A stretch of DNA of 42,292 nt from Flavobacteriales bacterium (GTDB lineage: Bacteria > Bacteroidota > Bacteroidia > CAIKAF01), in assembly GCA_025451295.1 (NCBI GenBank), contig JANWKQ010000085.1, positions 1-42,292 on the forward strand. The letters are read 5' to 3'. Positions 4,140 through 33,844 of this stretch are shown here, piece after piece. The translations under genes were made by a program, and so were the position numbers. Each line of letters opens with the position of its first letter. Positions within the stretch are counted from its first letter, which is position 1. The notes beneath the pieces are model-generated. The model ran no database searches and was not told where the DNA came from. It was given only the letters and a program-made list of their open reading frames with translations.

Positions 4140-5330
4140 ATGGATTATTTTGAACAGTCTCTTTTCCTTCATGAAAAGCTCCGCGGTAAGATCCGCATTC
4201 AACCCAAAATGGATATTCAAAGCAAGGAAGACCTTGCCCTCCTATACTCTCCCGGCGTAGCCGAGCCTTGTTTACGCATTGCCGAAAATCCGAATGATGT
4301 ATGGAAGTATACCATTAAAAGAAATACAGTCGCAGTTATCTCCGATGGTAGCGCTGTACTCGGACTAGGGAATATTGGTGCCCTGGCATCCATTCCTGTG
4401 ATGGAAGGTAAGGCTATGCTTTTCAAAAAATTTGCCGGCATTGATGCGTTTCCGATTTGTATTGATACACAGGATACCGAAAAAATAATTGAGACCATTA
4501 AATTTATCTCTCCCATTTTTGGAGGAATAAATCTGGAAGATATATCAGCCCCCCGTTGTTTCGAAGTGGAAGATCGTCTGCAGGATCTTGGAATTCCTGT
4601 TTTTCATGATGATCAACATGGTACAGCCGTAGTTGTGTTGGCGGGTATAATTAATTCATGCAAAATTTTAGGTCGTGAAATAAAAGATCTCAAAATTGTG
4701 ATCAATGGCGCCGGTGCTGCCGGTATCGCCATTGCTAAACTTCTGCGAAGCGCCACTTCCGGTGAGTCCAATGATCCGGCCATTGCGGTTAAAGAAGTTA
4801 TTTTATGTGACACGAAAGGAATCGTACATAAAGATCGTGATGATCTGAATGATACCAAAAGAGGAATTCTTAGCTGGACCAATCCAAATAATCATCATGG
4901 AACAGTGCAGGATGCATTGAAAAATGCCGATGTGTTTATTGGTGTAAGTCAGGCCAATTTATTAACGGCTGATGATATTCGCACCATGAATAAAGATGCC
5001 ATCATTTTCGCATTGGCTAATCCTGTTCCGGAAATTATGCCCGATGAAGCAACCAAGGGTGGTGCTGCCATTGTTGGTACAGGCAGATCCGATCTTCCTA
5101 ACCAGATCAACAATGTACTGGCCTTCCCCGGAATTTTCAGAGGTGCATTGGATGGTAAAGCAAAAAGAATTACCACCGCCATGAAGTTGGCTGCCGCTTA
5201 TGCGATCGCAGAAAGTGTATATAACATGGCCCGTGATAAGGTAGTACCTTCTACTTTAAATTTACGAGTGGCACACGAAGTAGCCCTGGCTGTTCAGGAT
5301 GCTATTAAAGACGAAGATCGTTTGTTTTAA
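4140..5330 (+). CDS. malic enzyme, short form without phosphotransacetylase domain
   Basis: 396 aa; LALLYSPGVAEPC, SDGSAVLGLGNIGALASIPVMEGKAMLFKKFAGIDAFPI, VFHDDQHGTAVVVLAGI, VINGAGAAGIAIAKLL. Confidence 0.93.
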   Translation: MDYFEQSLFLHEKLRGKIRIQPKMDIQSKEDLALLYSPGVAEPCLRIAENPNDVWKYTIKRNTVAVISDGSAVLGLGNIGALASIPVMEGKAMLFKKFAGIDAFPICIDTQDTEKIIETIKFISPIFGGINLEDISAPRCFEVEDRLQDLGIPVFHDDQHGTAVVVLAGIINSCKILGREIKDLKIVINGAGAAGIAIAKLLRSATSGESNDPAIAVKEVILCDTKGIVHKDRDDLNDTKRGILSWTNPNNHHGTVQDALKNADVFIGVSQANLLTADDIRTMNKDAIIFALANPVPEIMPDEATKGGAAIVGTGRSDLPNQINNVLAFPGIFRGALDGKAKRITTAMKLAAAYAIAESVYNMARDKVVPSTLNLRVAHEVALAVQDAIKDEDRLF

Positions 5331-8627: not shown

Positions 8628-9299
8628 CTAAGAAACAGGGGATATAATGATGACAATTTCGCCTTTGGGAGGATGATCGGTATAATATTGAAGCAGTTCT
8701 GCTGCTGTTCCTCTTTTTGTTTCGTGATAAATTTTTGATATTTCACGACAAACCGCCAGTTGTCTTTCGGCCGGTAAAAATTCTTTTGCTTCTTCCAATG
8801 CTTTTAAAAGACGATGTGGAGATTCATATACGACAAAAGTTTTTTCAGATAATGCAATCTCCTTCCATTTTGTCTGTCGTCCTTTTTTATGAGGTAGAAA
8901 ACCATCATATACAAAACTATCACATGGGAATCCGGATTGAACCAATGCAGGAACAAAGGCGGTTGGTCCAGGCAGACATTCCACCTCAATTTCGTTTTTC
9001 ACACATTCCCGGATCAATAAAAATCCCGGATCTGAAATGCCAGGTGTGCCGGCATCACTTACTAGTCCGGCTGTTTCCACCATTTGGATCTCGTCTACAA
9101 TTCTTTGTAATACTTTATGTTCATTGTGCTGATGAAAAGCAATGATCTTTCGGTCAATTCCAAAATGCTTCAATAAGTTTCCGGTGGTCCTGGTATCCTC
9201 GGCATAAAGCACATCCACCTCTTTTAATAGGCGAATGGCTCTATGAGTAATATCTTCCAGATTGCCGATAGGGGTAGGTATGATAAAGAGGCGGGCCAA
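8628..9299 (-). CDS. rsmI: 16S rRNA (cytidine(1402)-2'-O)-methyltransferase
   Basis: LFIIPTPIGNLEDITHRAIRLLKEVDVLYAEDTRTTGNLLKHFGI; SDAGTPGISDPGFLLI. Confidence 0.95.
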   Translation of the reverse strand: MARLFIIPTPIGNLEDITHRAIRLLKEVDVLYAEDTRTTGNLLKHFGIDRKIIAFHQHNEHKVLQRIVDEIQMVETAGLVSDAGTPGISDPGFLLIRECVKNEIEVECLPGPTAFVPALVQSGFPCDSFVYDGFLPHKKGRQTKWKEIALSEKTFVVYESPHRLLKALEEAKEFLPAERQLAVCREISKIYHETKRGTAAELLQYYTDHPPKGEIVIIISPVS

Positions 9300-10598
9300 T
9301 TATTTTATCTGGATTTGATCGATAAAATCTCTGAATAGATAATGAAGGTCTACAAATTCATTCAGAGGTAATGTTTCAGGCCGATCATCAATATCATGAT
9401 AAAATTTCACCGCCCCCATGGTATAAGCAAAAAAACACCTTACTTTTTTTTCGAAGAATGGATAATGGTCACTGTTGGCAGCAGGTCCTCTTTTCTTGAT
9501 CAGTGTTAAGTATTGTTTCTTTACGTTAATGCTATCCAGCAGATCAAATTCTTTTTTGAACTCTGTGGCATTAACCACCGTAATGCCTTCTTCACCCGTT
9601 CCCATGATATCGACGTTGAAAAGAAATTTGATTTGTGACAATGGGAAAACAGGATACATAGTATAACGGGTGGACCCAATTAATCCTGCCTCTTCGGCTC
9701 CAAATGCCATAAAAACAATGGAACATTTAGGTTGATTTTCCTTCATCGAATACCATTTGGCCAAACTTAGCATCATCGCGATTCCACTGGCATTGTCATT
9801 CGCTCCCGGGAAATAAACTGTTCTTCCGATCTTTCCCAGATGATCATAATGTGCACTGATCACAATAAATGAATCTGGTTTTTCCTTGCCTTCTACATAT
9901 CCGATCACATTTCGACAAGGATAATCATCAATAAATTTTGAATCCACTACAATACGCATCTGTTGAGAAGTCTTTGAAATATTTCCCTGAACAATCTCAA
10001 TGATAGGGAAAGGTGCTACTTCTGTGGCAACGCTCCATGTAATTTTTGATCTTACATAGATCAGTCCTTTTGCTCCAAAAGGATTCAAAGCCATGTTCTT
10101 AAATATCTTTTTTTGATCCGGATCAGTAACACCTTTGTCGTCAACCACAATAAAGTAGGTGGAAAAATCACGTCTGGCAAATTCTTTATAGGCCGCATCG
10201 TTAGCAACGGTAGCACTGTCAAGCCAGATAATATTCCAGGTGCCCTTTACATCCGGACATCCGGCATCAGGAACAAAATCTCTTCCGCAGATCAGGTATT
10301 GATCGTCGATGGCCACAAATACATCCCGTGGAAATACATTGACGGGGAAATTAAAGTTCTGATAATAGTTTTTTGCTCCAACAAATTTCTTGAGTCCCAA
10401 TTTATAAAACTCCGAGGCAACATAATAGGCTGCCAGATTGTCTCCTTCTTTGATATAACCTCTTCCTTTAAAAAATGAAGATGCCAGGGTATCAACAACG
10501 GTCCGGCCATATTTAAATATATCAAAGTTCAGATTATCCTGGCTTCGGAGAGAGCCAAGAGATAAAATGAAAAAGAAAACAATCAGTGATTTTTTCAT
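9300..10598 (-). CDS. M28 family metallopeptidase (secreted)
   Basis: Signal peptide; SFIVISAHYDHLGKIG, YFPGANDNASGIAMMLSLA, VFMAFGAEEAGLIGS, SDHYPFFEKKV. Confidence 0.92.
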   Translation of the reverse strand: MKKSLIVFFFILSLGSLRSQDNLNFDIFKYGRTVVDTLASSFFKGRGYIKEGDNLAAYYVASEFYKLGLKKFVGAKNYYQNFNFPVNVFPRDVFVAIDDQYLICGRDFVPDAGCPDVKGTWNIIWLDSATVANDAAYKEFARRDFSTYFIVVDDKGVTDPDQKKIFKNMALNPFGAKGLIYVRSKITWSVATEVAPFPIIEIVQGNISKTSQQMRIVVDSKFIDDYPCRNVIGYVEGKEKPDSFIVISAHYDHLGKIGRTVYFPGANDNASGIAMMLSLAKWYSMKENQPKCSIVFMAFGAEEAGLIGSTRYTMYPVFPLSQIKFLFNVDIMGTGEEGITVVNATEFKKEFDLLDSINVKKQYLTLIKKRGPAANSDHYPFFEKKVRCFFAYTMGAVKFYHDIDDRPETLPLNEFVDLHYLFRDFIDQIQIK

Positions 10599-10600
10599 TT

Positions 10601-11524
10601 TTAATCGAAGCGTCGTTGTATTAACGCAATGAACTGCAATGCTGTTTTATTTTCAGGATCCCATTTATACATCGAAGCCGCCTGGGCCAGTAAAGTCTCT
10701 GCTTCTTTCCATGTTTGCTTTGTATTCATCGCATCCACAAACTGGTTATAATGATCACTATTTTTACCAAAGAGTTCATTCGTATAATGGAATTTTTCAT
10801 GAAGGGGTATTGCTTTTTTCAAATCCTTCACTTTGGAATTCATCATTTTTTCGGCAATATTTTCCATTGACCCATCAATGATCGACTCATTCAGGGACGT
10901 GATCACCGTTTTCTTTTGATGCTCTTCTGTTTCATGTTCATATTTTGAATGAAGTGATTGAGGAACCTCTACTTTCTTTTCTTCCTTTACCAATATGTCC
11001 TCTTCTTTGAAAATTTCTTTTTTCGAAAATTCTCCTTCTGATGAATGAACTGTTAGAGGAACATTCGTTTCTGTTTTTTCCACTTCAGAAACAGGCTCGA
11101 TCAATGTATCCTCCAATAAATCATTTTTTGCCAGAGAAGAATTGGAATCTATTTTATCTGATATAACCGGAATGTCTACGTTAAAAGCATCAGCCAGGTG
11201 CTTATGCTCTTCCACTTTCTTTTCAAGTTCTTTATTGGTCTGGCGAAGTTTTTCTGCATCCTGTTCTGCCGTCTTTAATTGCTCGGTTAACACCCTCAAC
11301 TTATCCTGCAGATCACGAAGTTTGATCTGTTCATCAGAATTGGTAGCTGATGCCGGTTGATGTTTGATCACAGCAGCGAATTCAATGATCTTCGCAGCAT
11401 TGTTCACCATCATATCTATTTCACCGGGGGTAAAAGCCTCCGGGTTTTTTGCCAGTTGGTTATAAATATCCACCACCTTTTTCAGGTGGATGCCAATTTC
11501 TCTGAGTAGTTCGGGTTTTGTCAT
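10601..11524 (-). CDS. coiled-coil protein of unknown function
   Basis: 307 aa; central heptad-like region LRDLQDKLRVLTEQLKTAEQDAEKLRQTNKELEKKVEEHK; abuts the M28 peptidase gene. Confidence 0.75.
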   Translation of the reverse strand: MTKPELLREIGIHLKKVVDIYNQLAKNPEAFTPGEIDMMVNNAAKIIEFAAVIKHQPASATNSDEQIKLRDLQDKLRVLTEQLKTAEQDAEKLRQTNKELEKKVEEHKHLADAFNVDIPVISDKIDSNSSLAKNDLLEDTLIEPVSEVEKTETNVPLTVHSSEGEFSKKEIFKEEDILVKEEKKVEVPQSLHSKYEHETEEHQKKTVITSLNESIIDGSMENIAEKMMNSKVKDLKKAIPLHEKFHYTNELFGKNSDHYNQFVDAMNTKQTWKEAETLLAQAASMYKWDPENKTALQFIALIQRRFD

Positions 11525-11587
11525 GGTTTTAAAATGGTTAATCCGTTATAAAACAACGGTTTTATTATACATTTGTGTACAATTAAG

Positions 11588-11621
11588 GTTCTTAAATATC
11601 CTTATAAAAGAGCTTAAGAAC
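11588..11621 (+). promoter_or_regulatory. perfect 8-bp inverted repeat in probable leader of tdk
   Basis: GTTCTTAA (11588-11595) and TTAAGAAC (11614-11621), downstream of a TACATTTG -7-like element at 11568-11575. Confidence 0.4.
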
Positions 11622-11667
11622 AGTATGGTATCACAGCCGAAAATTACAAATTATTGGCAGGAAAAGT

Positions 11668-12243
11668 ATGTTTGTTGAAAACACATTAAAACAGGGCGAA
11701 AAACGGGGTTGCATTGAGGTGATCTGTGGCTCTATGTTTTCAGGAAAAACCGAAGAACTCATCCGGCGGCTTAAACGGGCTAAAATCGCGAAACTCAAGG
11801 TGGAGATCTTTAAACCCGAAATCGATACCAGATACCATGCGGAGGACGTCGTCTCTCATGAAGGAAACACCATAAAATCAACTCCGGTGCCTATTTCAGG
11901 GAATATTCTTTTACTGGCCAACGACATGGATGTGGTAGGTATTGATGAGGCCCAATTTTTTGATGATGGTCTCGTAGATGTATGCAATACCCTTGCAAAT
12001 AATGGGATAAGGGTGGTCGTAGCCGGATTGGATATGGACTATACCGGAAAACCTTTTGGAGTAATGCCCCGGCTTATGGCAGTGGCGGAATTTGTGACCA
12101 AGGTGCACGCTATTTGTGTTGATTGTGGCCATATAGCCAATCATTCGTATAGGGTAGGAGATGATGAAAAATTGGTTCTTCTGGGAGAAACCGATTCTTA
12201 TAAACCCCTTTGCAGAGATTGTTTTATTAAACATCAGGCATGA
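11668..12243 (+). CDS. tdk: thymidine kinase
   Basis: [47 protein letters not shown]; zinc-type [13 protein letters not shown] ... CRDC. Confidence 0.95.
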
Positions 12244-20802: not shown

Positions 20803-22812
20803 ATGGATATTCTTATTTTTCAATCCGCGATCCTTTTCTCATTATTGGTGTTTTTCGTTAACATCAGGCTAAAATATTTTTTGGTCTTACTCCCTGTATT
20901 GGCCATTATTGGTGTATCCTCTTATTGGGCAATTGATGTGCTCATTTCTAATCAAACCAAAACCCATTTACTTTCTTTCAATATATCAGAACAAATCTTT
21001 GGGTTTTGGAGCCAGACACCCCACCTGGTTATCGATCAGATCTCAGCTTTGTTCATCCTGATGATCAATGTTGTTTCACTGGGTGCATTTATATATGCCT
21101 ATGGCTATCTGAAAAAATATCTGGCCTTAAAAAGTCCCTTGGGGATGAGTATGCATTATTTTTCTTTTTTCCTTGTTTACATTTCCATGTTGTTGATCAC
21201 GATGATGCGGGAAGGCTTCATGTTCCTGTTCGTATGGGAATTGATGACTTTGTCTGCCTATCTCATGGTTGCCTTTCACGGCGAAAAGGAAAATATTAGA
21301 AAAGTGGCTATCAATTATCTGATGCAAATGCACCTTGGTTTTCTCTTCCTTTTAGCCGGGTTTTTGATCGTTAATAAAGAAACGGGGATTTGGGGATTTG
21401 AAGCCCTCGAAGTTTATTTTGCGAGTCATGATAACTATCTTGTATTCCTACTGTTCTTTGTTGGGTTTGGGGTAAAAGCCGGGCTCATTCCTTTCCATAC
21501 CTGGTTACCACATGCTCACCCGGCTGCCCCTGCGTATGTTTCGGCCACCATGAGCGGGGTCATCGTTAAAATGGGAGTATATGGGGTATTGAGGGTGCTT
21601 ACCCATGTTCAATCACAGTTATTCGAAATCGGATTAACCATGCTGATTGTTTCTTTGGTAACGATTTTGTTCTCCATTTCGATGGCCGTCTTTCAGCGGG
21701 ATTTAAAAAAACTACTCGCCTATTCTACCATCGAGAATATTGGTATTATTTTTCTCGGGATCTCACTTTCCATATTGGGCCGGGCTTATAACGTTCAGGC
21801 TTTAGCTGTATTAGCAATGATGGGCACTTTATTCCATGTATTAAATCATTCATTGTATAAATCCATGTTATTTATGCTTTGCGGAAATATTGAAAAGATC
21901 ACCAATACAAGAAACATCAACGAATTGGGAGGATTGGCAAAAAAGATGCCTTTTACAACTGCATTCTTCTTACTTGGCAGTCTGGCTTTATGCGCTCTTC
22001 CTCCATTTAATGGTTTTGTGGGTGAATTTTTGATATATAAAGGTATATACCGTGCAATTGCTGATGGGGGCTTTTTCATTTCAATTGTTGCCATTGTGTC
22101 GATCATTTTTATGGCACTTTCCGGTGGGATCTGTATATATGCCATGACCAAAGCCTTTGGCCTTTCATTTTTGGGTAGCAGCCGAAAACCATTTCCAGAA
22201 CCTTTGCATGAACCGTCAAAATCCATGTTTTTTCCTGCATTCCTGAATACAATATTGATACTTGCGATTGGACTTGCCCCTGTACTTATTCTTCCACAAC
22301 TCCAGGAAACCCTTAGCGCATTTAAGTTTATTCCCAAAAGCAGTCAGGTTTATCAAGTGCAAACAGCCGTCTTCCAGAAATTTGGATTACTCAGTCTTAT
22401 CCTCATTACGCTGTTTTTCCTGGTTTATTTGGTCAGATATCTTCAACAAAAAAGAGTACAGGTAATGCATGGACCTACCTGGGGCTGTGGTTATGAAGCC
22501 GGCGATGCCAAACATCAATATACTTCCACTTCCTATTCTAAGTCGATGCAAAATATTGTAAGTCCATTGCTGCAGGAGACAAACACATATCAGTCGTTCG
22601 AGGAAGAAGAAATTTTTCCAGGTGAAAGAAAATATCAAACCACTGTAAAAGATCGTTTGGAGGAGTCTGTCATACTAAGGCCTATCAACTACCTATTAAA
22701 TAGAATACCAAAATTGGGGCTGGCACAAACTGGAAGGATACAACATTATCTTATTTACCCAATGGCTTTTCTTTTGCTTATTGCCCTTTTATCCGCGTTT
22801 GGGATCATTTAA
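20803..22812 (+). CDS. HyfB-like proton-translocating antiporter-type membrane subunit (copy 1)
   Basis: 669 aa; FLFVWELMTLSAYLM (TM5 Glu), GFGVKAGLIPFHTWLPHAHPAAPAYVSATMSGVIVKMG, HyfB C-terminal WGCGYEAGDAKHQYTSTSYSKSMQNIVSP. Confidence 0.9.
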   Translation: MDILIFQSAILFSLLVFFVNIRLKYFLVLLPVLAIIGVSSYWAIDVLISNQTKTHLLSFNISEQIFGFWSQTPHLVIDQISALFILMINVVSLGAFIYAYGYLKKYLALKSPLGMSMHYFSFFLVYISMLLITMMREGFMFLFVWELMTLSAYLMVAFHGEKENIRKVAINYLMQMHLGFLFLLAGFLIVNKETGIWGFEALEVYFASHDNYLVFLLFFVGFGVKAGLIPFHTWLPHAHPAAPAYVSATMSGVIVKMGVYGVLRVLTHVQSQLFEIGLTMLIVSLVTILFSISMAVFQRDLKKLLAYSTIENIGIIFLGISLSILGRAYNVQALAVLAMMGTLFHVLNHSLYKSMLFMLCGNIEKITNTRNINELGGLAKKMPFTTAFFLLGSLALCALPPFNGFVGEFLIYKGIYRAIADGGFFISIVAIVSIIFMALSGGICIYAMTKAFGLSFLGSSRKPFPEPLHEPSKSMFFPAFLNTILILAIGLAPVLILPQLQETLSAFKFIPKSSQVYQVQTAVFQKFGLLSLILITLFFLVYLVRYLQQKRVQVMHGPTWGCGYEAGDAKHQYTSTSYSKSMQNIVSPLLQETNTYQSFEEEEIFPGERKYQTTVKDRLEESVILRPINYLLNRIPKLGLAQTGRIQHYLIYPMAFLLLIALLSAFGII

Positions 22813-23050
22813 AATTAAGATCCAAATAAATTTCCTGAAGTGTATTCATCAAAGCATCACCAATTGATGGATGTGGCCATATTCAGATTAATTTTTTTTT
22901 TAGAATTTAACCATTCAACAGATTCAATGTATCAATAATCAGCCTCTCCCATAATTTACTCAATGAAAAGGGGTCAATGATAAAAGGTGTATACAGTGTT
23001 TGTTTTATAATTTACCTTTGTGTTGCAATTTTATCACAGCGATAGAACAA

Positions 23051-23398
23051 ATGAAAAAGGCAGTTTCAATATTCATACTTTGTTGCATCTTCATCGGCAG
23101 CTTTTATGCCCAGAAGGCTCATTCAGGATTATGGATACAACATGCCAGTATTCAAAGTACAGTGCCAGGTTCAGGGGATCCTAACTGTAATAAAAGTCCA
23201 ATCTTTACCGAAATTTCATCCGAAAAGGAAGACTCGGAATCCAAAATGACGATTGAAGCGTTTTGTACCTCCGCAGGACATTTCCATCTCCGTTCAGAAT
23301 TTAAACAAAGTTCAAATATTCTAAATGAATATTCCGATGATCACCTGATCCGGAATTCCATTCCGCTGTTTATCAAAAACAGAAATATCCTTATCTGA
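23051..23398 (+). CDS. small secreted protein of unknown function between two hyfB paralogs
   Basis: ATG at 23051 gives MKKAVSIFILCCIFIGSFYAQ signal peptide followed by a ~95-aa mature region with no motif I recognise. Confidence 0.45.
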   Translation: MKKAVSIFILCCIFIGSFYAQKAHSGLWIQHASIQSTVPGSGDPNCNKSPIFTEISSEKEDSESKMTIEAFCTSAGHFHLRSEFKQSSNILNEYSDDHLIRNSIPLFIKNRNILI

Positions 23399-23474
23399 TT
23401 TTCAAGTTACAGCATTCAACTTTCTGATTTATTAATTACTGTTTAATATTATTTAAAATAAGTATTGTTTTCCT

Positions 23475-25484
23475 ATGGATATCATACTGTTTCAAACAGC
23501 TATTGCCATATCATTACTGGTATTCTTCGCACCGATAAGGATCAAATATTTTGCGATCTTACTTCCGATGCTGGCGATTATTGGAATCACTTCGATATGG
23601 GCGATAGATGTAATCGTTACTCATAAGATAAAGATAGCCTACCTGTCTTTTAATCTGTCAGAAAATATTTTTGGATTTTGGAGTGCAGTTCCAAAGATAA
23701 AGATTGATCAGATTTCTGCACTCTTCATTCTTATGATCAATGTAATAAGCATTGGAAGTTTGATATACGCTTACGGATATCTTAAGAAATATCTATCCAG
23801 CAAAAGTGCACTTGGAATATCAATGCACTATTTTTCATTCTTTTTATTGTACATCAGTCTTCTCCTGCTCACTATGATCAGAGATGGATTTCTCTTCCTT
23901 TTTCTCTGGGAATTGATGTCACTTTCTTCTTTTGTATTGATTGCGTTTGATGGTGAAAAAGCTCAGGTACGGGCCGTGGCCATTAATTATTTGATTCAAA
24001 TGCATATTGGCTTCATGCTTCTGCTGGCCGGATTTTTAATTGCGAACAAAGCAACGGGCATTTGGGGATTTGATGCTTTGCCTATTTATTTTAGCTCACA
24101 TCCCAACACACCTCTTTTCTTCATTTTCTTTCTTGGGTTCGCCGTCAAAGCCGGTTTAATGCCATTTCATACATGGGCTCCAAAAGCTGATCCCATTGCA
24201 CCACCACATGTATCAGCACTTATGAGTGGGGTATTGGTAAAAATTGGTTGTCTTGGTATCATGAGAGTGGCGATGAGTTTGCAGAACAGTTTTTCTGAAA
24301 TAGCAAGTATTCTTCTTGCCTTCTCATTAATTACCATCGTATTCTCCATATCAATGTCCGTATATGAAAAAGATCTGAGAAAACTACTGGCTTATTCGTC
24401 GATCGAAAATGTGGGTGTCATTTGTTTAGGACTTTCATTGTCTATTTTCGGAACAGCTTATAAAATTCCTGCGTTAGCGGTTCTCGGAATACTGGGTTCC
24501 ATCTTTCATGTTTTTAGCCATTCTTTATACAAGTCAACTCTTTTCCTTTTAACCGGTAATGTTGAACGAATTTCAGGCACAAGGAATATCAATGAGTTGG
24601 GAGGACTCGCAAAAAAAATGCCGCTTACCGCATTTTTCTTTTTGTTGAGCGGTTTATCACTCTGTGCACTTCCTCCTTTTAATGGATTTGTTTCAGAATT
24701 TCTAATGTATGAAGGAATATTCAAGGCCATCTCAACCGGTGATTTCTATATTTCAATCATCTGCATTCTTGTAGTAATTGTATTGGCTATTTCAGGAGGA
24801 CTTTCCATTTTCGCGATGACCAAAGCTTTTGGCTTGTCGTTTTTGGGGAGCCAGCGTAAAGAATATACATCTGATATCATTGATCCACCAAAAAGTATGC
24901 TCGTACCTGCTGTGATCAACTCGATACTTATGTTGTTGCTGGGACTCACCCCATTTCTCATTTTTCCAGAAATATATGAAGCCATCGCGGCTTTTAAATA
25001 TCTCCCGGCCGACAATAGTCATTACTTTCAACATGTGGATATTTATCAAAAATTCGGATTATTAAGTGGTATACTTGTTGCATTATCAATGATCGTATTT
25101 GCCATTCGACGAATTCAACAAAAACGAATTCAGGTCAATGTGGGTCCCACCTGGGGTTGTGGATATTCCGGAGGAACGGCCAAACACCAATACACTTCCT
25201 TTTCTTTTTCAGTCCCACTTAAGCGAATTTTAAGTCCAATACTTTCGCAAAAAAATAATTTTATAAAATATCCAGAAGAAGAGATTTTTCCGGGAGAACG
25301 GAAATTCGATGTGGACTCGGTCGATCGATTGGAAAAATATTCAATATCAATCCCGATCAAATTTCTTTTAAAGATTATTCCATTTGTTGGTTTAGCACAA
25401 ACGGGCAGGATACAGCATTATCTGATCTACCCTGTTGGATTTCTTATATTAATTGTAGTGATGACAGCCTTTAATTTTATATAA
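23475..25484 (+). CDS. HyfB-like proton-translocating antiporter-type membrane subunit (copy 2)
   Basis: 669 aa, colinear with copy 1; FLFLWELMSLSSFVL, GFAVKAGLMPFHTWAPKADPIAPPHVSALMSGVLVKIG, WGCGYSGGTAKHQYTSFSFS. Confidence 0.9.
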   Translation: MDIILFQTAIAISLLVFFAPIRIKYFAILLPMLAIIGITSIWAIDVIVTHKIKIAYLSFNLSENIFGFWSAVPKIKIDQISALFILMINVISIGSLIYAYGYLKKYLSSKSALGISMHYFSFFLLYISLLLLTMIRDGFLFLFLWELMSLSSFVLIAFDGEKAQVRAVAINYLIQMHIGFMLLLAGFLIANKATGIWGFDALPIYFSSHPNTPLFFIFFLGFAVKAGLMPFHTWAPKADPIAPPHVSALMSGVLVKIGCLGIMRVAMSLQNSFSEIASILLAFSLITIVFSISMSVYEKDLRKLLAYSSIENVGVICLGLSLSIFGTAYKIPALAVLGILGSIFHVFSHSLYKSTLFLLTGNVERISGTRNINELGGLAKKMPLTAFFFLLSGLSLCALPPFNGFVSEFLMYEGIFKAISTGDFYISIICILVVIVLAISGGLSIFAMTKAFGLSFLGSQRKEYTSDIIDPPKSMLVPAVINSILMLLLGLTPFLIFPEIYEAIAAFKYLPADNSHYFQHVDIYQKFGLLSGILVALSMIVFAIRRIQQKRIQVNVGPTWGCGYSGGTAKHQYTSFSFSVPLKRILSPILSQKNNFIKYPEEEIFPGERKFDVDSVDRLEKYSISIPIKFLLKIIPFVGLAQTGRIQHYLIYPVGFLILIVVMTAFNFI

Positions 25485-25485
25485 T

Positions 25486-26391
25486 ATGATAGCTTTCCTG
25501 TTAATATTAATCTGCGCCCTACTCTATCCAGGTACGATCGATAAGACGAAGGCCATTTTATCTGGGCGAAAGGGTCCTAAGATCCATCAGTTCATTTTTG
25601 ATGCATGGAGGCTTTTCAAAAAAGGGAGTATATACAGTGATAAATCAAGTTTTGTTTTTCAGATATCCGCCACCATCAATTTTGTTTGTTTAATTACAGC
25701 CATCCTTCTCATTCCATTTGCGGGTGAACCGTCTTTATTTTCCTTCGATGGTGATTTTGTATTTATGATCTATTTGCTTGGGCTCGGAAGATTTATGTCC
25801 GTGGTGGCTGCATTGGACGTATCAAGTGGTTTTGAAGGAATGGGAGCAAACAGAGAAGTGCTCTATGCGGCTTTGCTCGAGCCCGCTTTCTTATTACTTA
25901 TGGGTACACTCTGTATTTTCACCGGCTATACCAATTTCAACGATATTTTTACGGCACTTTACGCCGACCAATACCTGGCATCCGTTGTTATTATTATTTC
26001 CTCTATTATTTTGTTTTTATTCATACTCGTGGAGAACAGCAGGATACCTGCAGATGATCCCAATACCCATCTTGAATTAACCATGGTTCATGAAGTAATG
26101 ATACTAGACCACAGTGGTTTTGACCTGGGTCTCATCAAACTCACCGCGGCATTAAAATTTGCAGTATTTGGTTCGCTTATTTGTAATCTGGTAATTCCAA
26201 GTCATTTTCCAATTGGAATAAAGATCCTTCTCTTTATGATTTTTCAGTTTGCACTGGCAGTAGCTATAGGATTTATAGAATCATTTAAACCCAGAAATAA
26301 AATGGCCAGAAATCCCCAGTATATTATCAGTATTTCCGCCATTGCCCTCGTATTATATTGCGTGATGATCATTATAAAAAATAAAATGTAA
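25486..26391 (+). CDS. HyfC/NuoH-like membrane subunit
   Basis: 301 aa; VENSRIPADDPNTHLELTMVHEVMILDHSGFDL. Confidence 0.9.
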   Translation: MIAFLLILICALLYPGTIDKTKAILSGRKGPKIHQFIFDAWRLFKKGSIYSDKSSFVFQISATINFVCLITAILLIPFAGEPSLFSFDGDFVFMIYLLGLGRFMSVVAALDVSSGFEGMGANREVLYAALLEPAFLLLMGTLCIFTGYTNFNDIFTALYADQYLASVVIIISSIILFLFILVENSRIPADDPNTHLELTMVHEVMILDHSGFDLGLIKLTAALKFAVFGSLICNLVIPSHFPIGIKILLFMIFQFALAVAIGFIESFKPRNKMARNPQYIISISAIALVLYCVMIIIKNKM

Positions 26392-26392
26392 A

Positions 26393-27031
26393 ATGGAGTA
26401 TTTAATAAATCTAATCGTCGTCGCATATATTGTATCCCTGATTTATCTTGCAAAGGTAGAGTTGCTTAAAACATATGTGAAAATTCTTTTGGTACAGGGA
26501 CTCATCATCTTCTTCGTGGCACTGGCCGAATTAAAAGAAGTGGATATTCTTCACCTCATGTTTGTATTGGTTGAAACCCTTGTTTTCAAGGCGATATTCG
26601 TCCCGTTATTCATGCAGCGGGTAATCAAAAGATCCAAGCAAACCAAAAATAGTGGAATGTATATCAAACCTTACATTTCTGTGATACTGGCTACAGTTAT
26701 GGTGGCAATTTCCTTTGCATTGGTTGAATCAATACATGATGAACATCTGGAGATCAAATATTTTACAGCCGCGATTTCATCAATCATGATTGGTTTGTAT
26801 GTAGGGATAAACCATCGTGATATCATCACGCATCTTATCTCCTATATGATCATAGAGAATGGGATTTTCCTCATCGCTCTGGCCCTCGGTGGAGAAATGC
26901 CTATTCTGGTGAACAGTGCCATCCTGCTGGATATCTTCTCAACAATACTCATCATGGGAATGTTCTTTAATAAGATCAAAAACTATTTCAATTCAACCGA
27001 CGAAACGGAACTAACCAAACTAAAAGACTAG
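26393..27031 (+). CDS. HyfE/NuoK-like membrane subunit
   Basis: 212 aa, multi-helix; MFVLVETLVFKAIFVPLFM and ISYMIIENGIFLIALALGGEMPILVNSAILLDIF. Confidence 0.87.
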   Translation: MEYLINLIVVAYIVSLIYLAKVELLKTYVKILLVQGLIIFFVALAELKEVDILHLMFVLVETLVFKAIFVPLFMQRVIKRSKQTKNSGMYIKPYISVILATVMVAISFALVESIHDEHLEIKYFTAAISSIMIGLYVGINHRDIITHLISYMIIENGIFLIALALGGEMPILVNSAILLDIFSTILIMGMFFNKIKNYFNSTDETELTKLKD

Positions 27032-27033
27032 AA

Positions 27034-28461
27034 ATGATCATATCAGTTTTTCTCATATCGAGTATTGTTTTTGCCCTGTTGGCATACATTATTAAAAGGC
27101 CAATTCTCAGCCATTTCGTTACTTTTTTGTATTCCGTTTTTCTCTGCATTTTCGTTGGCTATGAATATCTTCACATCAATCAAACCCAGGCTACGTATTT
27201 CAAACCTGATGCAATTGGAATTATATTCCTGATTGTTCAGGCCATCGTAGATTTGATTTCCATCATTCACTATTATAATTATACAAAGTCCAGAGGTGAT
27301 CATCCCAAAAGTATCTCAGTCCATAATATGGGGCGCATCATTTTCAATATGTCGATTGCCGGAGTTTTGCTGGCCAATCACTTTGGTGTGCTTTGGGTAT
27401 TTATGGAAATAACCACATTGGCTCTATCGTTACTTATTTATCATGACAGAACTACAACTGCTTTAGAAGGTACCTGGAAATATGTTTTTATATGTTCGAT
27501 TGGTATTGCTATCGCTTTTGCCGGTGTATTATTCTTAAGTATAGGGGCCAACGAGGTAGGCATCAAGGATCTTTTTTACGATCAGGTGAAGGAAAAAGTA
27601 ACGCTGATCAATCCACTCTGGTTAAAAGCCTGTTTTATTTTTATCCTCACGGGATTTAGTGTCAAGATGGGTCTGGTCCCTTTATTTAATGTCGACATCG
27701 ACGCAAAGGATGTTTCTCCATCACCGGTTGGAGCTAAACTTTCCAGTGTAGTAATGAATTCAGGGTTTGTTGCCATTTTTAGATTTTATGATGCGCTTTC
27801 AGGTTCTTCCATCTTTACCTGGATGAATCATGTACTACTTATTGTTGGAACCATGTCACTGCTGTTCGTGGTGGCCTATTCATTAAAAGTGAACAATGTA
27901 AAAAGATTGCTTGCGTATTCAAGCATGGAACATGCAGCACTGGTTATTATTGCCTTTGCCTGTGGAGGACTTGGTTATTTTATCGCGATCCTTCATCTCA
28001 TTATCCACTCGTTAGTAAAGTCGACCTTATTTTTCCAGTTCGCACAGATGCACAGGATTTTTAAAGACAAGAACTATTTAAACATGGGTGCCTATCTCAA
28101 GATCAATCCGCTGGGAGCTTTAGTTCTTTTTCTGAGTTATATCTCAATTATCGGATTTCCTCCCTCGTGTATGTTCATTACGGAGATACTTATTTTCAGA
28201 AGTATCATCGACTCTCAATATGCCTGGCTGGCGATTGTTATTGGTTTTTTTATGCTGTTCATTATCTATGGAATGTCAGTTCGGATCTTTCATATACTCA
28301 TGGGAAAACCAGGAGTAAAAGAATTCGACGAAAAAGGCAAAAACAATCTTGAATCTCTTATCCAGTTGGTTGTTATTTCAGCCGTATTTTATCTGGGAAT
28401 TGTTAAACCTGATGTTGTGGTCAACTATATCGCCATGGCAGTATCCACTTTACCTCATTGA
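27034..28461 (+). CDS. HyfF/NuoN-like antiporter-type membrane subunit
   Basis: 475 aa; LWVFMEITTLALSLLIY, ILTGFSVKMGLVPLF, VKRLLAYSSMEHAALVIIAFACGG, HSLVKSTLFF. Confidence 0.88.
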   Translation: MIISVFLISSIVFALLAYIIKRPILSHFVTFLYSVFLCIFVGYEYLHINQTQATYFKPDAIGIIFLIVQAIVDLISIIHYYNYTKSRGDHPKSISVHNMGRIIFNMSIAGVLLANHFGVLWVFMEITTLALSLLIYHDRTTTALEGTWKYVFICSIGIAIAFAGVLFLSIGANEVGIKDLFYDQVKEKVTLINPLWLKACFIFILTGFSVKMGLVPLFNVDIDAKDVSPSPVGAKLSSVVMNSGFVAIFRFYDALSGSSIFTWMNHVLLIVGTMSLLFVVAYSLKVNNVKRLLAYSSMEHAALVIIAFACGGLGYFIAILHLIIHSLVKSTLFFQFAQMHRIFKDKNYLNMGAYLKINPLGALVLFLSYISIIGFPPSCMFITEILIFRSIIDSQYAWLAIVIGFFMLFIIYGMSVRIFHILMGKPGVKEFDEKGKNNLESLIQLVVISAVFYLGIVKPDVVVNYIAMAVSTLPH

Positions 28462-28463
28462 TC

Positions 28464-29981
28464 ATGGAAAAATTATTTGAAACAAAAAATAACCTCCCTG
28501 TTAGGATAGCTGATATTCCGGTTGTTCCTTACAATAAGTTTTTTGAAGTAATCACTTTTTTATTACGGTCACAGGATTATCATATTCTAACCTATCTGGC
28601 TTATCCCACTGATCAGGGCCTGAGTTTTGTTTGCGCCATAGCAGATGATCAGAATAAATCCATTTCCCTTATTTCACATCTTATACCGAATGGTGCTCCC
28701 TTGAAAGTGTATTCTATGATGCCAAAGTATGATGTATTCCATTCGTGTGAAAGAGAGATCCACGAAAAATACGGAGTAGTGTTCGAGGACAATCATTTTC
28801 TCAAACCGATCCGTTATTCTCATGACAGGATTAACAAAGAATCGAAGATTACTGATTACCCTTTTTATAAGATCGAAAGCGATGAGTTGCATGAAGTGGG
28901 AGTTGGGCCCATCCATGCCGGGATTATCGAACCTGGACACTTCAGGTTCTTATGTGCCGGAGAAAGAGTACTCCATCTGGAAGTACAGTTGGGTTGGCAA
29001 CATCGTGGAATTGAAACATTGTTTCTACAAAAGAAAAAATTGTTACAACGTGCTGTGCTGGCCGAAAATATTGCTGGTGATACAGCTGTTGGACATACCC
29101 TCGCCTACTCTCAGGCCATCGAATCACTCGCCGGTTTGAAGATCCGTGAAAAATTAAACTACGAAAGGGTTATTGCACTCGAAATTGAGCGGATTGGTAT
29201 GCATATTTTTGATCTTTCAAATCTATGCACAGGTGCCGCTTACCAGTTGGGTAATGCTTCACTGGGAGTTTTAAGGACCCCTACTATTAATTATTTACAA
29301 ACCTGGTGTGGAAATCGTTTTGCAAAAGGACTCATCAGACCTGGAGGAACTCACTATCCTTTTACACGTGAATTGCAGGAAAAGCTCCTCACCTACCTTG
29401 ATTCGTTTGAGGAAAAATATGCAGTGATTTCCGACAAGCTTTTAAATCTTTCAGGAATTCAACTTCGTTTTCAGGATATAGGAACATTGACCAGAAAACA
29501 GGTTTATATGATAGGTGGTGTGGGAACTACAGCCAAAATGGCTGGCCTAAAAAGAGATACCAGATGGAGTCATCCATTTGCTGGCTATCATGAGTTGCAC
29601 CATGAACCGGTCATTTTCGATGCCGGAGATATTTATGCAAGGATCCAGGTACGTCATTATGAAATTTTACAAAGCATTAAATATTTACGCCGAATCGCCG
29701 AGATCATGAATTTTCAAAACCAGGTACCATCACCTATCACGGATGAAAATATCCGATTGGCCAAAAGTTGCCTAACGGTTTCCATCACGGAAGGTTGGAG
29801 AGGAGAAATTGTACATACAGCTATTACTGATCAGGAAGGAAATATCTGTTGTTATAAGATCAAAGATCCCTCCCTGCATAATTGGTGGGCATTGGCACTT
29901 TCATTGAGAGATCGAGAAATCAGTGATTTCCCTATCAATAATAAAAGTTATAATCTTTCATACTGCGGACACGATCTATAA
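28464..29981 (+). CDS. HyfG-like fused NuoC/NuoD large subunit lacking NiFe-binding cysteines
   Basis: HSCEREIHEKYGVVFEDNHFLKPIRYSHD (NuoC part); GPIHAGIIEPGHFRF, HLEVQLGWQHRGIE, LAENIAGDTAVGHTLAYSQAIE (NuoD/hydrogenase large-subunit part). Confidence 0.9.
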   Translation: MEKLFETKNNLPVRIADIPVVPYNKFFEVITFLLRSQDYHILTYLAYPTDQGLSFVCAIADDQNKSISLISHLIPNGAPLKVYSMMPKYDVFHSCEREIHEKYGVVFEDNHFLKPIRYSHDRINKESKITDYPFYKIESDELHEVGVGPIHAGIIEPGHFRFLCAGERVLHLEVQLGWQHRGIETLFLQKKKLLQRAVLAENIAGDTAVGHTLAYSQAIESLAGLKIREKLNYERVIALEIERIGMHIFDLSNLCTGAAYQLGNASLGVLRTPTINYLQTWCGNRFAKGLIRPGGTHYPFTRELQEKLLTYLDSFEEKYAVISDKLLNLSGIQLRFQDIGTLTRKQVYMIGGVGTTAKMAGLKRDTRWSHPFAGYHELHHEPVIFDAGDIYARIQVRHYEILQSIKYLRRIAEIMNFQNQVPSPITDENIRLAKSCLTVSITEGWRGEIVHTAITDQEGNICCYKIKDPSLHNWWALALSLRDREISDFPINNKSYNLSYCGHDL

Positions 29982-29990
29982 AACAACCTT

Positions 29991-30749
29991 ATGCTGAAAG
30001 AAATAAAAATATTAAGAAATCATGGCAAGCAATTTATTGCGGATGTAACGCAGCCGGTTTTACCATCCACTTTCAAAGGGAGACCCATCATTTCGGAAGA
30101 GGAAGTAGATAATGCCGAACTCATCAGCCTTTGTCCTACGGACGCGATCAATGACAACAACGGCATCGAAATTGATCTCGGTAAATGTATTTTTTGTGGG
30201 GAATGTATGTTTCGTTTTCCGGAAAAAGTAAAATGGGTGAATGATTATAAGACTGCTACCAATAAAAGAGAATCACTCATTATTAAGGAAGGGAATGAGC
30301 AACTGGTCCAAATCGATCAATCAATTATCAGCAAACAAATTAAATCGTTGTTTGGAAGATCTCTTCGTCTAAGAGAAGTAAGTGCTGCCGGGGATAACAG
30401 TAGTGAACTGGAATTAAATGCAACGGTGAATCCAAATTTTGATCTTGCCAGATTCGGGATAGACTGGGTTGCCTCTCCACGTCATGCAGATGGACTTGTA
30501 CTCACCGGCCCGATCAGCGATAATATGGCCGAGCCATTGCAAATTTGCTATGATGCCATACCAGACCCAAAGATCCTGATCCTGGTAGGGACGGATGCCA
30601 TCAGTGGGGGAATATTTGCCGGAAGTCCGGCTCTTAACAGAAAATTTCTCGAAGGGAAACATGTGGATCTGTTTGTACCTGGCAATCCTGTTCATCCACT
30701 CACTTTTGTAAACGGGATACTTGAATTAACAAGAAAAATTAAATCGTAA
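29991..30749 (+). CDS. fusion of 4Fe-4S ferredoxin-like domain and NuoB/HyfI-like small subunit lacking proximal cluster cysteines
   Basis: LCPTDAI ... KCIFCGECMFRFPEKVKWV then FDLARFGIDWVASPRHADGLVLTGPISDNMAEPLQICYDAIPDPKILILVGTDAISGGIFAGS. Confidence 0.9.
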   Translation: MLKEIKILRNHGKQFIADVTQPVLPSTFKGRPIISEEEVDNAELISLCPTDAINDNNGIEIDLGKCIFCGECMFRFPEKVKWVNDYKTATNKRESLIIKEGNEQLVQIDQSIISKQIKSLFGRSLRLREVSAAGDNSSELELNATVNPNFDLARFGIDWVASPRHADGLVLTGPISDNMAEPLQICYDAIPDPKILILVGTDAISGGIFAGSPALNRKFLEGKHVDLFVPGNPVHPLTFVNGILELTRKIKS

Positions 30750-30770
30750 ATATTTTTTATATATCATTCA

Positions 30771-32474
30771 ATGAAAACTCAAATGAAAATTCCGGCAGAC
30801 GGATTAAAAGGACTCAAAGAAAATTGGTCAAAAGACCTGGTCTCAGGTCTCATTGTTTCTCTATTGGCATTGCCCCTGAGCTTAGGAATTGCACAAGCTT
30901 CGGACTTCCCACCAATCATGGGGGTTTTAACCGCCATCATCGGTGGAACCATTGTTGCCCTTCTTGCGGGTTCACAATTAACCATTAAAGGTCCCGCAGC
31001 CGGGCTTATTGTTATTGTTGCAGGGGCAGTAAGTGAGTTTGGAGGAGGGACAACCGGTTGGTCAATGGCATTAGGAGCTATTGTGGTCGCCGCACTTTTA
31101 CAAATTCTCTTAGGGTTTCTAAAGTTGGGAAAACTGGTAGATTATTTTCCTCATACTGTAGTTCATGGAATGTTGGGAGCCATTGGTTTCATCATTTTAT
31201 CCAAACAATTACATCTTTTAATGGGTGTAAACCCAGTCCATACTGAAGGAATCATGAAAGGAAAACCTCTGGTGGAACCACTCGAATTATTCAGAGCATT
31301 GCCTGATTCCTTTCGATCGCTCCAGGAAAACCAGGAACACAAGGAAATATTTCTCATCGGAATCATTTGTCTCCTTATCGTGTTTGGATGGACAGTTATT
31401 TCCGACAAGTTTCTTAAAAAAATCCCTGCTCCTTTAGCTGTATTGGCGCTATCAATACCACTTGGTGCACTGTTAGGCTTTGGTAAAATTGATGGCGGTT
31501 TGTTAAAGGTCGACAACATTTTTAAGGCGGTCGATTTCAATGTAAGCTTTGACGGATTTTCAAAACCAGGCGTGTTTATTAAATATGTTCTCATGTTTGC
31601 GTTGATCGGCAGTGTTGAATCCTTGTTAACTGTAAAGGCCATTGATATTCTTGATCCATTTAAGCGAAAAGCGAAAGCGAATAAGGATCTGGTGGCTATC
31701 GGTGTTGGAAATGCTGTTTCAGGTGTGCTGGGAGGTTTACCGATGATCTCAGAGGTGGCACGGAGCAGTGCAAATGTAAACAGTGGAGCAAAAACCCGGT
31801 GGGCAAACTTTTTCCATGGTACTTTTCTCATACTTTTTGTCGTTATCCTTGTGCCAGTAATCGAGTTGATCCCTAAAGTGGCGCTTGCGGCAATTCTTAT
31901 TGGAGTTGGTTATAAGCTTGCCTCGGTAAAAGAGTTTGTTCATATTTTCAAAGTCGGATGGTGGCAATTACTTGTGATGGTATCAACTACGATTGCCATT
32001 CTTCTTACCGACCTTTTAATTGGTGTAGGTATTGGTCTTGCTATCAAATTTATTATCCACTACATGGGCGGACTTCCGTTTAGATATACTTTTAAACCGG
32101 ATATGGAATTTTTACAGGATAAGGATCGAACCATCGTCTATATAAGAAGCGGGGCTGTTGTAACCAATTTGCCTGGTATTATGAAAAAACTGGAAACTCT
32201 GCCAAAAGGTCAAACGATTTTCTTCGATCTTTCCGAATGTTTCCTGGTGGATCATACATCGATGGAAACCTTCAAAGCCTTTCAAAGGGAATATATAGAA
32301 GATGGTGGTCGCTGTGAGTTTACAGGAATGGATCGTCATAAACATATTTCAAAACACGAATTCAGTACCATGTTCCTTCCAAAAAACATAAGGGCAGACA
32401 TTAAAAGTCGCAGAACAGGAGCCGTAACTGAACGAAGAAAAGATGATCCGAATCACGAACACAGAATTAATTAA
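30771..32474 (+). CDS. SulP family inorganic anion transporter with C-terminal STAS domain
   Basis: 567 aa; KDLVSGLIVSLLALPLSLGIAQASDFPPIMGVLTAIIGG, AGSQLTIKGPAAGLIVIV; STAS region IFFDLSECFLVDHTSMETF. Confidence 0.93.
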   Translation: MKTQMKIPADGLKGLKENWSKDLVSGLIVSLLALPLSLGIAQASDFPPIMGVLTAIIGGTIVALLAGSQLTIKGPAAGLIVIVAGAVSEFGGGTTGWSMALGAIVVAALLQILLGFLKLGKLVDYFPHTVVHGMLGAIGFIILSKQLHLLMGVNPVHTEGIMKGKPLVEPLELFRALPDSFRSLQENQEHKEIFLIGIICLLIVFGWTVISDKFLKKIPAPLAVLALSIPLGALLGFGKIDGGLLKVDNIFKAVDFNVSFDGFSKPGVFIKYVLMFALIGSVESLLTVKAIDILDPFKRKAKANKDLVAIGVGNAVSGVLGGLPMISEVARSSANVNSGAKTRWANFFHGTFLILFVVILVPVIELIPKVALAAILIGVGYKLASVKEFVHIFKVGWWQLLVMVSTTIAILLTDLLIGVGIGLAIKFIIHYMGGLPFRYTFKPDMEFLQDKDRTIVYIRSGAVVTNLPGIMKKLETLPKGQTIFFDLSECFLVDHTSMETFKAFQREYIEDGGRCEFTGMDRHKHISKHEFSTMFLPKNIRADIKSRRTGAVTERRKDDPNHEHRIN

Positions 32475-32479
32475 ATGCG

Positions 32480-33844
32480 ATGAAACAAAAGATCATTTTG
32501 TTGGTTGCATGCATATGTTTTGTGGTTATCAACTCTTTTTCTCAAAATGCAGACGAGGATGAAAAACGTGATCTGAAATTTAACCTGAACAAAACAGGGA
32601 CCAAATATTTTAAATTTACCATCACCAACCAGGTTTGGGTCAGGTTTAATGAAAGCAATCCCGGTACTATTGTGAACAGTCTGCCAAAGCCACAAACTTT
32701 TGACGTTGGTTTGAGAAGATTGAGATTCCAGATTATTGGACAAATACACGATAAATTTTTTATCTATGTTCAGTTCGGGATTAATAATTTTACTCCACTC
32801 TCTGCCCGAAAGTTCGGCGATTTTTTTCACGATGCAATTGTGGAGTACACGCCTGTAAAGATCATGAGTAAAAAAGAAGGAAAAGAAAACCTTACCATGT
32901 TCAGTCTTTCGTTGGGTACAGGTTTAGCGGCATGGACAGGTCATAGCAGATTTTCGAGTCCGGGTGTAGCTTCCTTTTTAGGAATTGATGCCCCGCTTTA
33001 CCAGCAAAGTACGAATGATGCAACCGACCAGTTTTTTAGAAAGTTTGCGGTCTATATAAAAGGTAAAGTATGGAAGTTTGATTACCGTTTTATTCTGGCT
33101 GATCCGTTTACGATTACTTCGAGTAATTTATTTGATCCATTTATTTCACAATATGCCAACTTCACACCTATTGGCAGATCGATCCAACCCAGCGGATATG
33201 TAAGTCTTCAGTTCTTCGATCAGGAAAGCAATCAAACGCCATACAACAATGGCACCTATCACGGAACAAAAAGAATATTGAACATTGGGTCTGGATTTCA
33301 GTATCAAAAAGATGCCATGTGGTATACAAGAACCGGAACGGATACCACTTTCTCCGATATGTTCCTCGTAGGAGCTGATGTATTTTATGATACGCATCTG
33401 GGGAAAAACAAGGACTGGGCGTTTTCTTTATATGCTGCCTACAACTATTATAATTTCGGACCGGGGTATTTGCGTCAGGTAGGTGTGATGAATCCAGGTC
33501 AATCAGTTGCGGCAGGAACTGCCACCATCAATGGTACAGGAAATGCCTTTCCCATGATTGGCACCGGTCATGTAGGATACTTACAAACAGGTTTGATGTT
33601 ACCCAAAAAATGGTTTGGTAAAGGAACATTTACAATAATGCCGTATTTTTCTTCACAGGTCGCTATGTGGGAAAGGTTAAATGATCCAATGGTTACTTTT
33701 GATACTGGGTTGAATTTTTTATTTGACAGCCATCGTTATAAAATGACGATCAATTATCAGAACAGACCGGTTTTTGACAATACTAATTTCCTACAGGTAC
33801 AAAGGAAAAGTATGGTTACCTTCCAGTTTCAAATTGCTATTTAA
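32480..33844 (+). CDS. outer-membrane beta-barrel porin-like protein
   Basis: 454 aa; signal peptide; DVGLRRLRFQIIGQIHDKFFIYVQFGINNF; alternating barrel-like pattern ending VTFQFQIAI. Confidence 0.75.
   Translation: MKQKIILLVACICFVVINSFSQNADEDEKRDLKFNLNKTGTKYFKFTITNQVWVRFNESNPGTIVNSLPKPQTFDVGLRRLRFQIIGQIHDKFFIYVQFGINNFTPLSARKFGDFFHDAIVEYTPVKIMSKKEGKENLTMFSLSLGTGLAAWTGHSRFSSPGVASFLGIDAPLYQQSTNDATDQFFRKFAVYIKGKVWKFDYRFILADPFTITSSNLFDPFISQYANFTPIGRSIQPSGYVSLQFFDQESNQTPYNNGTYHGTKRILNIGSGFQYQKDAMWYTRTGTDTTFSDMFLVGADVFYDTHLGKNKDWAFSLYAAYNYYNFGPGYLRQVGVMNPGQSVAAGTATINGTGNAFPMIGTGHVGYLQTGLMLPKKWFGKGTFTIMPYFSSQVAMWERLNDPMVTFDTGLNFLFDSHRYKMTINYQNRPVFDNTNFLQVQRKSMVTFQFQIAI

Follow-up and report, generated by a model that had tools for sequence, protein, structure and literature searches.

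The window, a contig of 42,292 nucleotides from a Flavobacteriales bacterium (GenBank JANWKQ010000085.1, assembly GCA_025451295.1), carries an operon for an energy-converting-hydrogenase-related (Ehr-type) complex, with genes in the order hyfB-hyfB-C-E-F-G-I-sulP-porin (20803-33844). Intergenic gaps are of 1–21 bases from the second hyfB through the porin gene. The genes, and the former and retained cofactor sites discussed below, were located as follows.

20803..22812, + strand: hyfB-like antiporter-type subunit, copy 1 (Proton_antipo_M, E 5e-54)
23000..23398, + strand: small open reading frame with apparent signal peptide, before hyfB (blastp match to 4557-4928 of locus L001)
23475..25484, + strand: hyfB-like antiporter-type subunit, copy 2 (61% identical to copy 1)
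25486..26391, + strand: hyfC, NuoH-like membrane subunit (NADHdh, E 4e-27)
26393..27031, + strand: hyfE, NuoK-like subunit (hydrogenase 4 membrane subunit model, E 6e-18; Oxidored_q2, E 8e-4)
27034..28461, + strand: hyfF, NuoN-like antiporter-type subunit (Proton_antipo_M, E 9e-37)
28464..29981, + strand: hyfG, EhrL-type large subunit with NuoC and NuoD domains, without NiFe ligands (domain and structure searches, alignment)
29064..29096, + strand: former N-terminal NiFe motif ENIAGDTAVGH, HyfG residues 201-211 (DRVCGICGFAH in HycE; alignment)
29943..29978, + strand: former C-terminal NiFe motif KSYNLSYCGHDL, HyfG residues 494-505 (alignment)
29991..30749, + strand: hyfI, EhrS-type small subunit with fused N-terminal ferredoxin-like domain, N2 site lost (Oxidored_q6, E 4e-18; homologous to MbhJ and HycG)
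30132..30206, + strand: HyfI C48, C66, C69 and C72, ligands of the retained ferredoxin [4Fe-4S] cluster (16/16 in the clade described below)
30393..30404, + strand: HyfI D135 and S138, former N2 ligands 1 and 2 (ligand-column alignment)
30594..30596, + strand: HyfI D202, former N2 ligand 3 (Asp 16/16 against Cys 21/21)
30684..30686, + strand: HyfI N232, former N2 ligand 4 (Asn 16/16 against Cys 21/21)
30771..32474, + strand: SulP-family anion transporter, 21 bp past hyfI (Sulfate_transp, E 1e-59)
32480..33844, + strand: porin-like outer-membrane protein, 5 bp past sulP (ExtI-type porin model, E 2e-7, below cut-off)

The first hyfB copy also matched a hydrogenase 4 subunit B model (E 2.5e-138, below the model cut-off), and no NADH module NuoEFG lies within the operon. 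A related species (genome G408, locus L001) has the identical gene order but a single hyfB; in a tree the two copies here grouped only with that single copy, so the duplication is specific to this lineage. The small signal-peptide open reading frame before hyfB is present in L001 as well; it is fast-evolving (36% identity, E 6e-21), and searches of Pfam and NCBIfam with the version at 23000-23398 gave no match.

The former NiFe site of the large subunit

The hyfG reading frame is intact and encodes 505 residues. It matched Complex1_49kDa (E 4e-29) and, weakly, Complex1_30kDa, and its best relatives of solved structure were Pyrococcus MbhL (6cfw_L, 1.5e-38) and E. coli HycE (7z0s_E, 1.3e-32). 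An earlier, sequence-only reading had described the product as a NuoC/NuoD-type HyfG homolog; the protein indeed aligned with HycE, HyfG and MbhL, and its motifs read as quoted there. That reading had also counted three of four NiFe ligands as absent, taking the cysteine of NLSYCGHDL as the fourth. The loss stands, but the count does not: aligned with HycE and HyfG, all four cysteine columns hold other residues (A204, T207, S499 and G502), and the cysteine of YCGHDL occupies an x position rather than a ligand column, where relatives have Cys, Ser or Ala. HyfG has nine cysteines in total and no CxxC anywhere in its 505 residues, and none of the neighbouring genes scanned encodes a NiFe subunit.

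HycE carries a C-terminal extension that is cleaved off during NiFe maturation, and HyfG stops about where HycE runs on into it. With four non-cysteine ligand columns, no CxxC and no extension for maturation, hydrogenase activity is excluded for the complex at the level of sequence, as the earlier reading had concluded. In its own genome (78% complete) we found no NiFe large subunit, HypA or HypD, and in the congener G408 (98% complete) no HypD; HypD is present in eight other Ehr carriers. The two CxxC motifs and the hyp genes that mark group 4 NiFe hydrogenases are thus both missing from what was searched here.

The HyfG copy of L001, independently assembled and 87% identical, carries the same changes, which rules out a sequencing artefact or assembly fault. 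For this pair, in which dS is saturated, only pN and pS were compared, and values of 0.09 and 0.81, respectively, place hyfG under purifying selection. AlphaFold models built from two-sequence alignments were unusable (pLDDT 33 for HyfG and 30 for HyfI).

In all, 40 Ehr-type large subunits, the one at 28464-29981 included, came from two draws of genomes (396 of Bacteroidota and 395 of the class) and from seven plasmids belonging to other lineages. The residues that replace the NiFe site form a conserved pocket (G205 in 40/40, D206 in 39/40, K494 in 40/40, S499 in 38/40, G502 in 40/40 and D504 in 40/40), with the signature E-x-[IV]-[AST]-G-D-[ST] plus NKS[FY]..[SN]Y.G.D in nearly all sampled; Gly205 occupies the position of the quinone-site Tyr. 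All four NiFe cysteines are absent from 39 of the 40. The exception, L100, has a stray cysteine at a single former ligand column (it reads ESICGDT) and comes from a reduced cluster of hyfF and hyfG only (9147-11953), with no small subunit seen nearby.

In a tree that did not include the published Geobacter EhrL, the NiFe-less complexes, this one among them, split from E. coli Hyf/Hyc with 100/100 support. Tree position, subunit set and operon order all fit the Ehr membership proposed earlier: like Ehr (ehrABCDLS; Geobacter GSU0739-0745 type), the complex has antiporter-like, NuoH, HyfE, large and small subunits and no NiFe ligands, whereas a doubled hyfB and the genes for SulP and a porin distinguish its operon. 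That there are Ehr complexes, and that they have no NiFe site, was already known (PMC6349859, PMC10284858, PMC3569383), and the remark that its physiological reaction is unresolved agrees with the literature, in which the function is called unknown (PMC10284858, PMC6349859).

Replacement of the N2 ligands in the small subunit

The proximal [4Fe-4S] cluster of complex I and group 4 hydrogenases, N2, is held by four cysteines of the small subunit. In HyfI these columns hold D135, S138, D202 and N232, whereas the other Ehr small subunits aligned keep all four cysteines (21/21). HyfI belongs to an N2-less clade of 16 Bacteroidota complexes (this locus, L001, L033 and L087-L099), supported at 100/98 with the ligand columns masked, in which ligands 1, 3 and 4 are fixed as Asp, Asp and Asn (16/16) and the second column (138) is Cys in 12 members, Ser in two and Asn in two. 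Among 252 small-subunit positions the only clade-diagnostic columns are C135D, G137S, C202D and C232N; the chance of three of these four falling on ligands is ~6e-6. Because Asp/Asp/Asn and Gly137Ser are the sole diagnostic columns, the change looks like replacement and not decay. The clade's large subunits show only two clade-specific switches, R40H and G139S, and being otherwise unchanged they retain the pocket despite the loss of N2.

It is this loss that, as judged from the alignments, sets the clade apart from ordinary Ehr, in which N2 is usual (21/21 of the others aligned) and stands outside the published definition consulted. No paper in the literature searched, from which the founding ones (Coppi 2005, Marreiros 2013) and a review of 2016 were missing, describes an Ehr clade whose N2 ligands have been replaced. 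The genome's own canonical complex I (contig C59) has the N2 cysteine columns in NuoB and the Tyr at the quinone-site position in NuoD.

Within the ferredoxin-like part of HyfI, C48, C66, C69 and C72 are invariant across the clade (16/16) and the ligands of the second cluster are lost. We take the retained cluster to be N6b by complex I numbering; with the other ferredoxin cluster and N2 both gone, it would then lack both of its partners in the wire. Among proteobacterial and actinobacterial Ehr, five small subunits carry N2 without the fused ferredoxin domain; together with the N2-less clade, this leaves no iron-sulfur site that every Ehr sampled shares.

An Ehr copy on plasmid pMESIL01 of Allomeiothermus silvanus (Deinococcota; L054, 12254-13126) has lost the same site (T, D, E and S at the ligand columns) and was placed elsewhere in the tree. 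One joint origin of the two losses was rejected by an AU test (p 9e-7, with a long-branch warning), which indicates two changes. The N2 motifs of this copy read GNTGLDD, GNEAIGG and PGSPARP, and its pocket motif is also altered, to GGE.

Membrane arm and adjoining genes

The charged residues of the membrane arm are complete in this operon (both HyfB copies, HyfF and HyfC) and nearly invariant in the rows aligned: E146, K225, K256 and E408 of HyfB in 39/39, E125 and K211 of HyfF in 30/30 and its E384 in 27/30, and E132, E183, D190, E197 and E265 of HyfC in 27/27. We take those of the antiporter-type subunits to be the TM5 Glu, TM7/8 Lys and TM12 Glu/Lys, and HyfC to be the charged NuoH channel. 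By sequence, the arm has the features expected of the ion-translocating complex I superfamily.

SulP adjoins Ehr in nine of the Bacteroidota loci examined, in three arrangements: past hyfI with a porin (this locus, L001 and L034), upstream of hyfB together with an HTH-EIIA_2 gene (L039 and L043-L046), and, in L048, within the operon as a SulP-STAS-EIIA fusion. Within the N2-less clade it is limited to one lineage, and most members are without it; in L033 the contig ends soon past hyfI. The best models for the transporter at 30771-32474 were sulP, DauA and BicA, all below cut-off. The count leaves out L087, whose SulP-like match is weak, 181 residues long and without the transporter part.

Proposed function and its alternatives

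Loss of NiFe and N2 with the proton-moving parts intact suggests that the complex works without electron transfer, and for the N2-less clade the case is fairly strong. The electron wire would be cut twice, once at the NiFe site (in Ehr generally) and once at N2 (in this clade, with Asp, Asp and Asn instead), and the antiporter-like membrane arm retains a charged route for protons or cations. With the pocket and that route both outlasting N2, and none of the iron-sulfur sites shared by every Ehr sampled, the simplest reading is that a complete electron wire is not needed for the conserved function; the single ferredoxin [4Fe-4S] cluster kept in 16/16 may mean some electron role for the complex. 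On balance we favour an Ehr-type derivative acting as a non-redox ion-translocating machine, probably tied to anion uptake via SulP and the porin. Such a machine might be an H+/cation antiporter, or its ion transport might be coupled, through conformational change, to a non-redox event involving a ligand of the conserved pocket (D206, K494, S499 and T207); the SulP transporter and porin would couple it to anion uptake, and the Asp/Asp/Asn site could bind a cation or join in proton transfer. The sequences themselves show that both sites are lost, that pocket and membrane residues are conserved and that the gene order is shared; we infer the absence of electron transfer, the ion and direction of transport, and the coupling to SulP.

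More tentatively, the clade may have abandoned redox wholly: a proton or a cation would bind at Asp/Asp/Asn, and the membrane arm would be driven or gated by ion exchange or by the binding of a ligand rather than by electron transfer. In that case the function that Ehr complexes have in common may be something other than redox. The clade is a natural mutant, with pocket and ion path kept and the pocket-adjacent iron-sulfur site replaced. If the complex works, N2 electron transfer would be dispensable for Ehr function, the search for that function would turn away from redox partners and towards the physiology of ions, pH or anions, and the clade would offer a test bed for a complex I membrane arm running without redox, a central question in bioenergetics.

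A residual oxidoreductase, in which the retained ferredoxin cluster passes electrons to a nearby partner or acceptor, bypassing N2 and still driving ion pumping, would account for the invariance of C48, C66, C69 and C72 and for the oxidoreductase gene past hyfI in L088, with like-sized genes in L089 and L096. However, both wire neighbours of that cluster are lost, this operon has no electron-input subunit and, by complex I geometry, the cluster would lie too far from the pocket for direct tunnelling, so we regard this as unlikely. Geobacter raises Ehr abundance on formate (PMC7894505), which would fit such an enzyme and hints at redox in ordinary Ehr. We are more doubtful still of vectorial CO2 hydration or bicarbonate supply, similar in function to DAB or cyanobacterial NDH-1MS, in which the pocket hydrates CO2 or binds bicarbonate, the arm uses or expels the proton and SulP is a bicarbonate transporter. 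In its favour are the operon's SulP and porin, which L001 and L034 also have; SulP beside other Bacteroidota Ehr in two further arrangements; a fusion of SulP to carbonic anhydrase encoded elsewhere in this genome; and the precedent of complex I-type subunits paired with CO2 systems in DAB2 (PMC13144422). Yet no zinc-site motif was recognised in HyfG or HyfI, the SulP substrate models all fell below cut-off, two beta-carbonic anhydrases are already encoded in the genome and most relatives are without SulP.

Two successive cofactor-site losses could also be read as the mark of a remnant, a decaying or purely structural complex without transport or catalysis, but purifying selection, an intact ion path and the same Asp/Asp/Asn fixed across 16 genomes from many families make this very improbable. 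Homology to HycE and MbhL is what a true NiFe hydrogenase with unusual ligands could claim; the sequence refutes it, with no CxxC, no HypA/HypD or NiFe subunit found in the 78%-complete genome and no C-terminal maturation extension, and we give it practically no weight.

Among related systems, the Mrp antiporters and DAB/MpsAB have complex I-type antiporter subunits that run without redox, as they would here; neither is known to have NuoB/NuoD-type peripheral subunits, unlike the complex here. Identity with DAB/MpsAB was rejected, DabA (PF10070) not being found in the genome (78% complete). E. coli hydrogenase-4 and formate hydrogenlyase (HyfBCEFGI, HycCDEG) share the order B-C-E-F-G-I and the charged membrane residues, but here there is no NiFe, no N2, no hyp gene found and no formate dehydrogenase partner, and HyfD is absent. 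Respiratory complex I (NuoB/NuoD of C59) is built from the same subunit families, with its ion path in NuoH/L/M/N; it differs in having N2, a quinone-site Tyr where HyfG has Gly205, and NuoEFG. Pyrococcus Mbh and Mbs/Mbx (6cfw, 6u8y) have homologous large and small subunits; Mbh has NiFe, and Mbs/Mbx, which has no NiFe site, is nevertheless described as an oxidoreductase (PMC6349859), whereas in the complex here N2 is gone as well. In Methylacidiphilum, Ehr has been linked to pH homeostasis (PMC6688271).

Other genes beside Ehr loci were also recorded. A conserved neighbour of ~223 residues in relatives, considered as a carbonic anhydrase, proved to be an HTH plus PTS EIIA_2 protein; its gene precedes hyfB in many Bacteroidota Ehr operons (L035-L046). 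HPr genes lie near Burkholderiales Ehr (L056 and L059), and regulation of Ehr may involve the PTS. At L034 (12952-20000), kdpA and the gene for a Kdp-type P-type ATPase lie next to the Ehr operon in divergent orientation, and hyfC went undetected there between hyfE and hyfB; a Kup-type transporter gene lies beside the operon of L090. The Kdp, Kup, SulP and HPr neighbours point to ion and anion physiology, though no more than suggestively. The gene past hyfI in L088, L089 and L096 encodes ~355 residues, and the L088 copy, the one scanned, is an FAD/NAD/2Fe-2S oxidoreductase; L088 also has a PaaA/PaaC-type gene upstream of hyfB. The SulP fused to a beta-carbonic anhydrase domain in the same genome (C254:1165-1617; L062) is likely a bicarbonate system.

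Ehr-type matches are common on plasmids of Rhizobium, Azospirillum and Burkholderia (L055-L059; 125 plasmid records matched), some of them near stress-type genes such as those for a universal stress protein and spermidine synthase. A Variovorax plasmid (L053, 5725-23248) has two different Ehr operons next to each other, a Burkholderiales-type one and one of the fused-ferredoxin type that resembles those of Bacteroidota.
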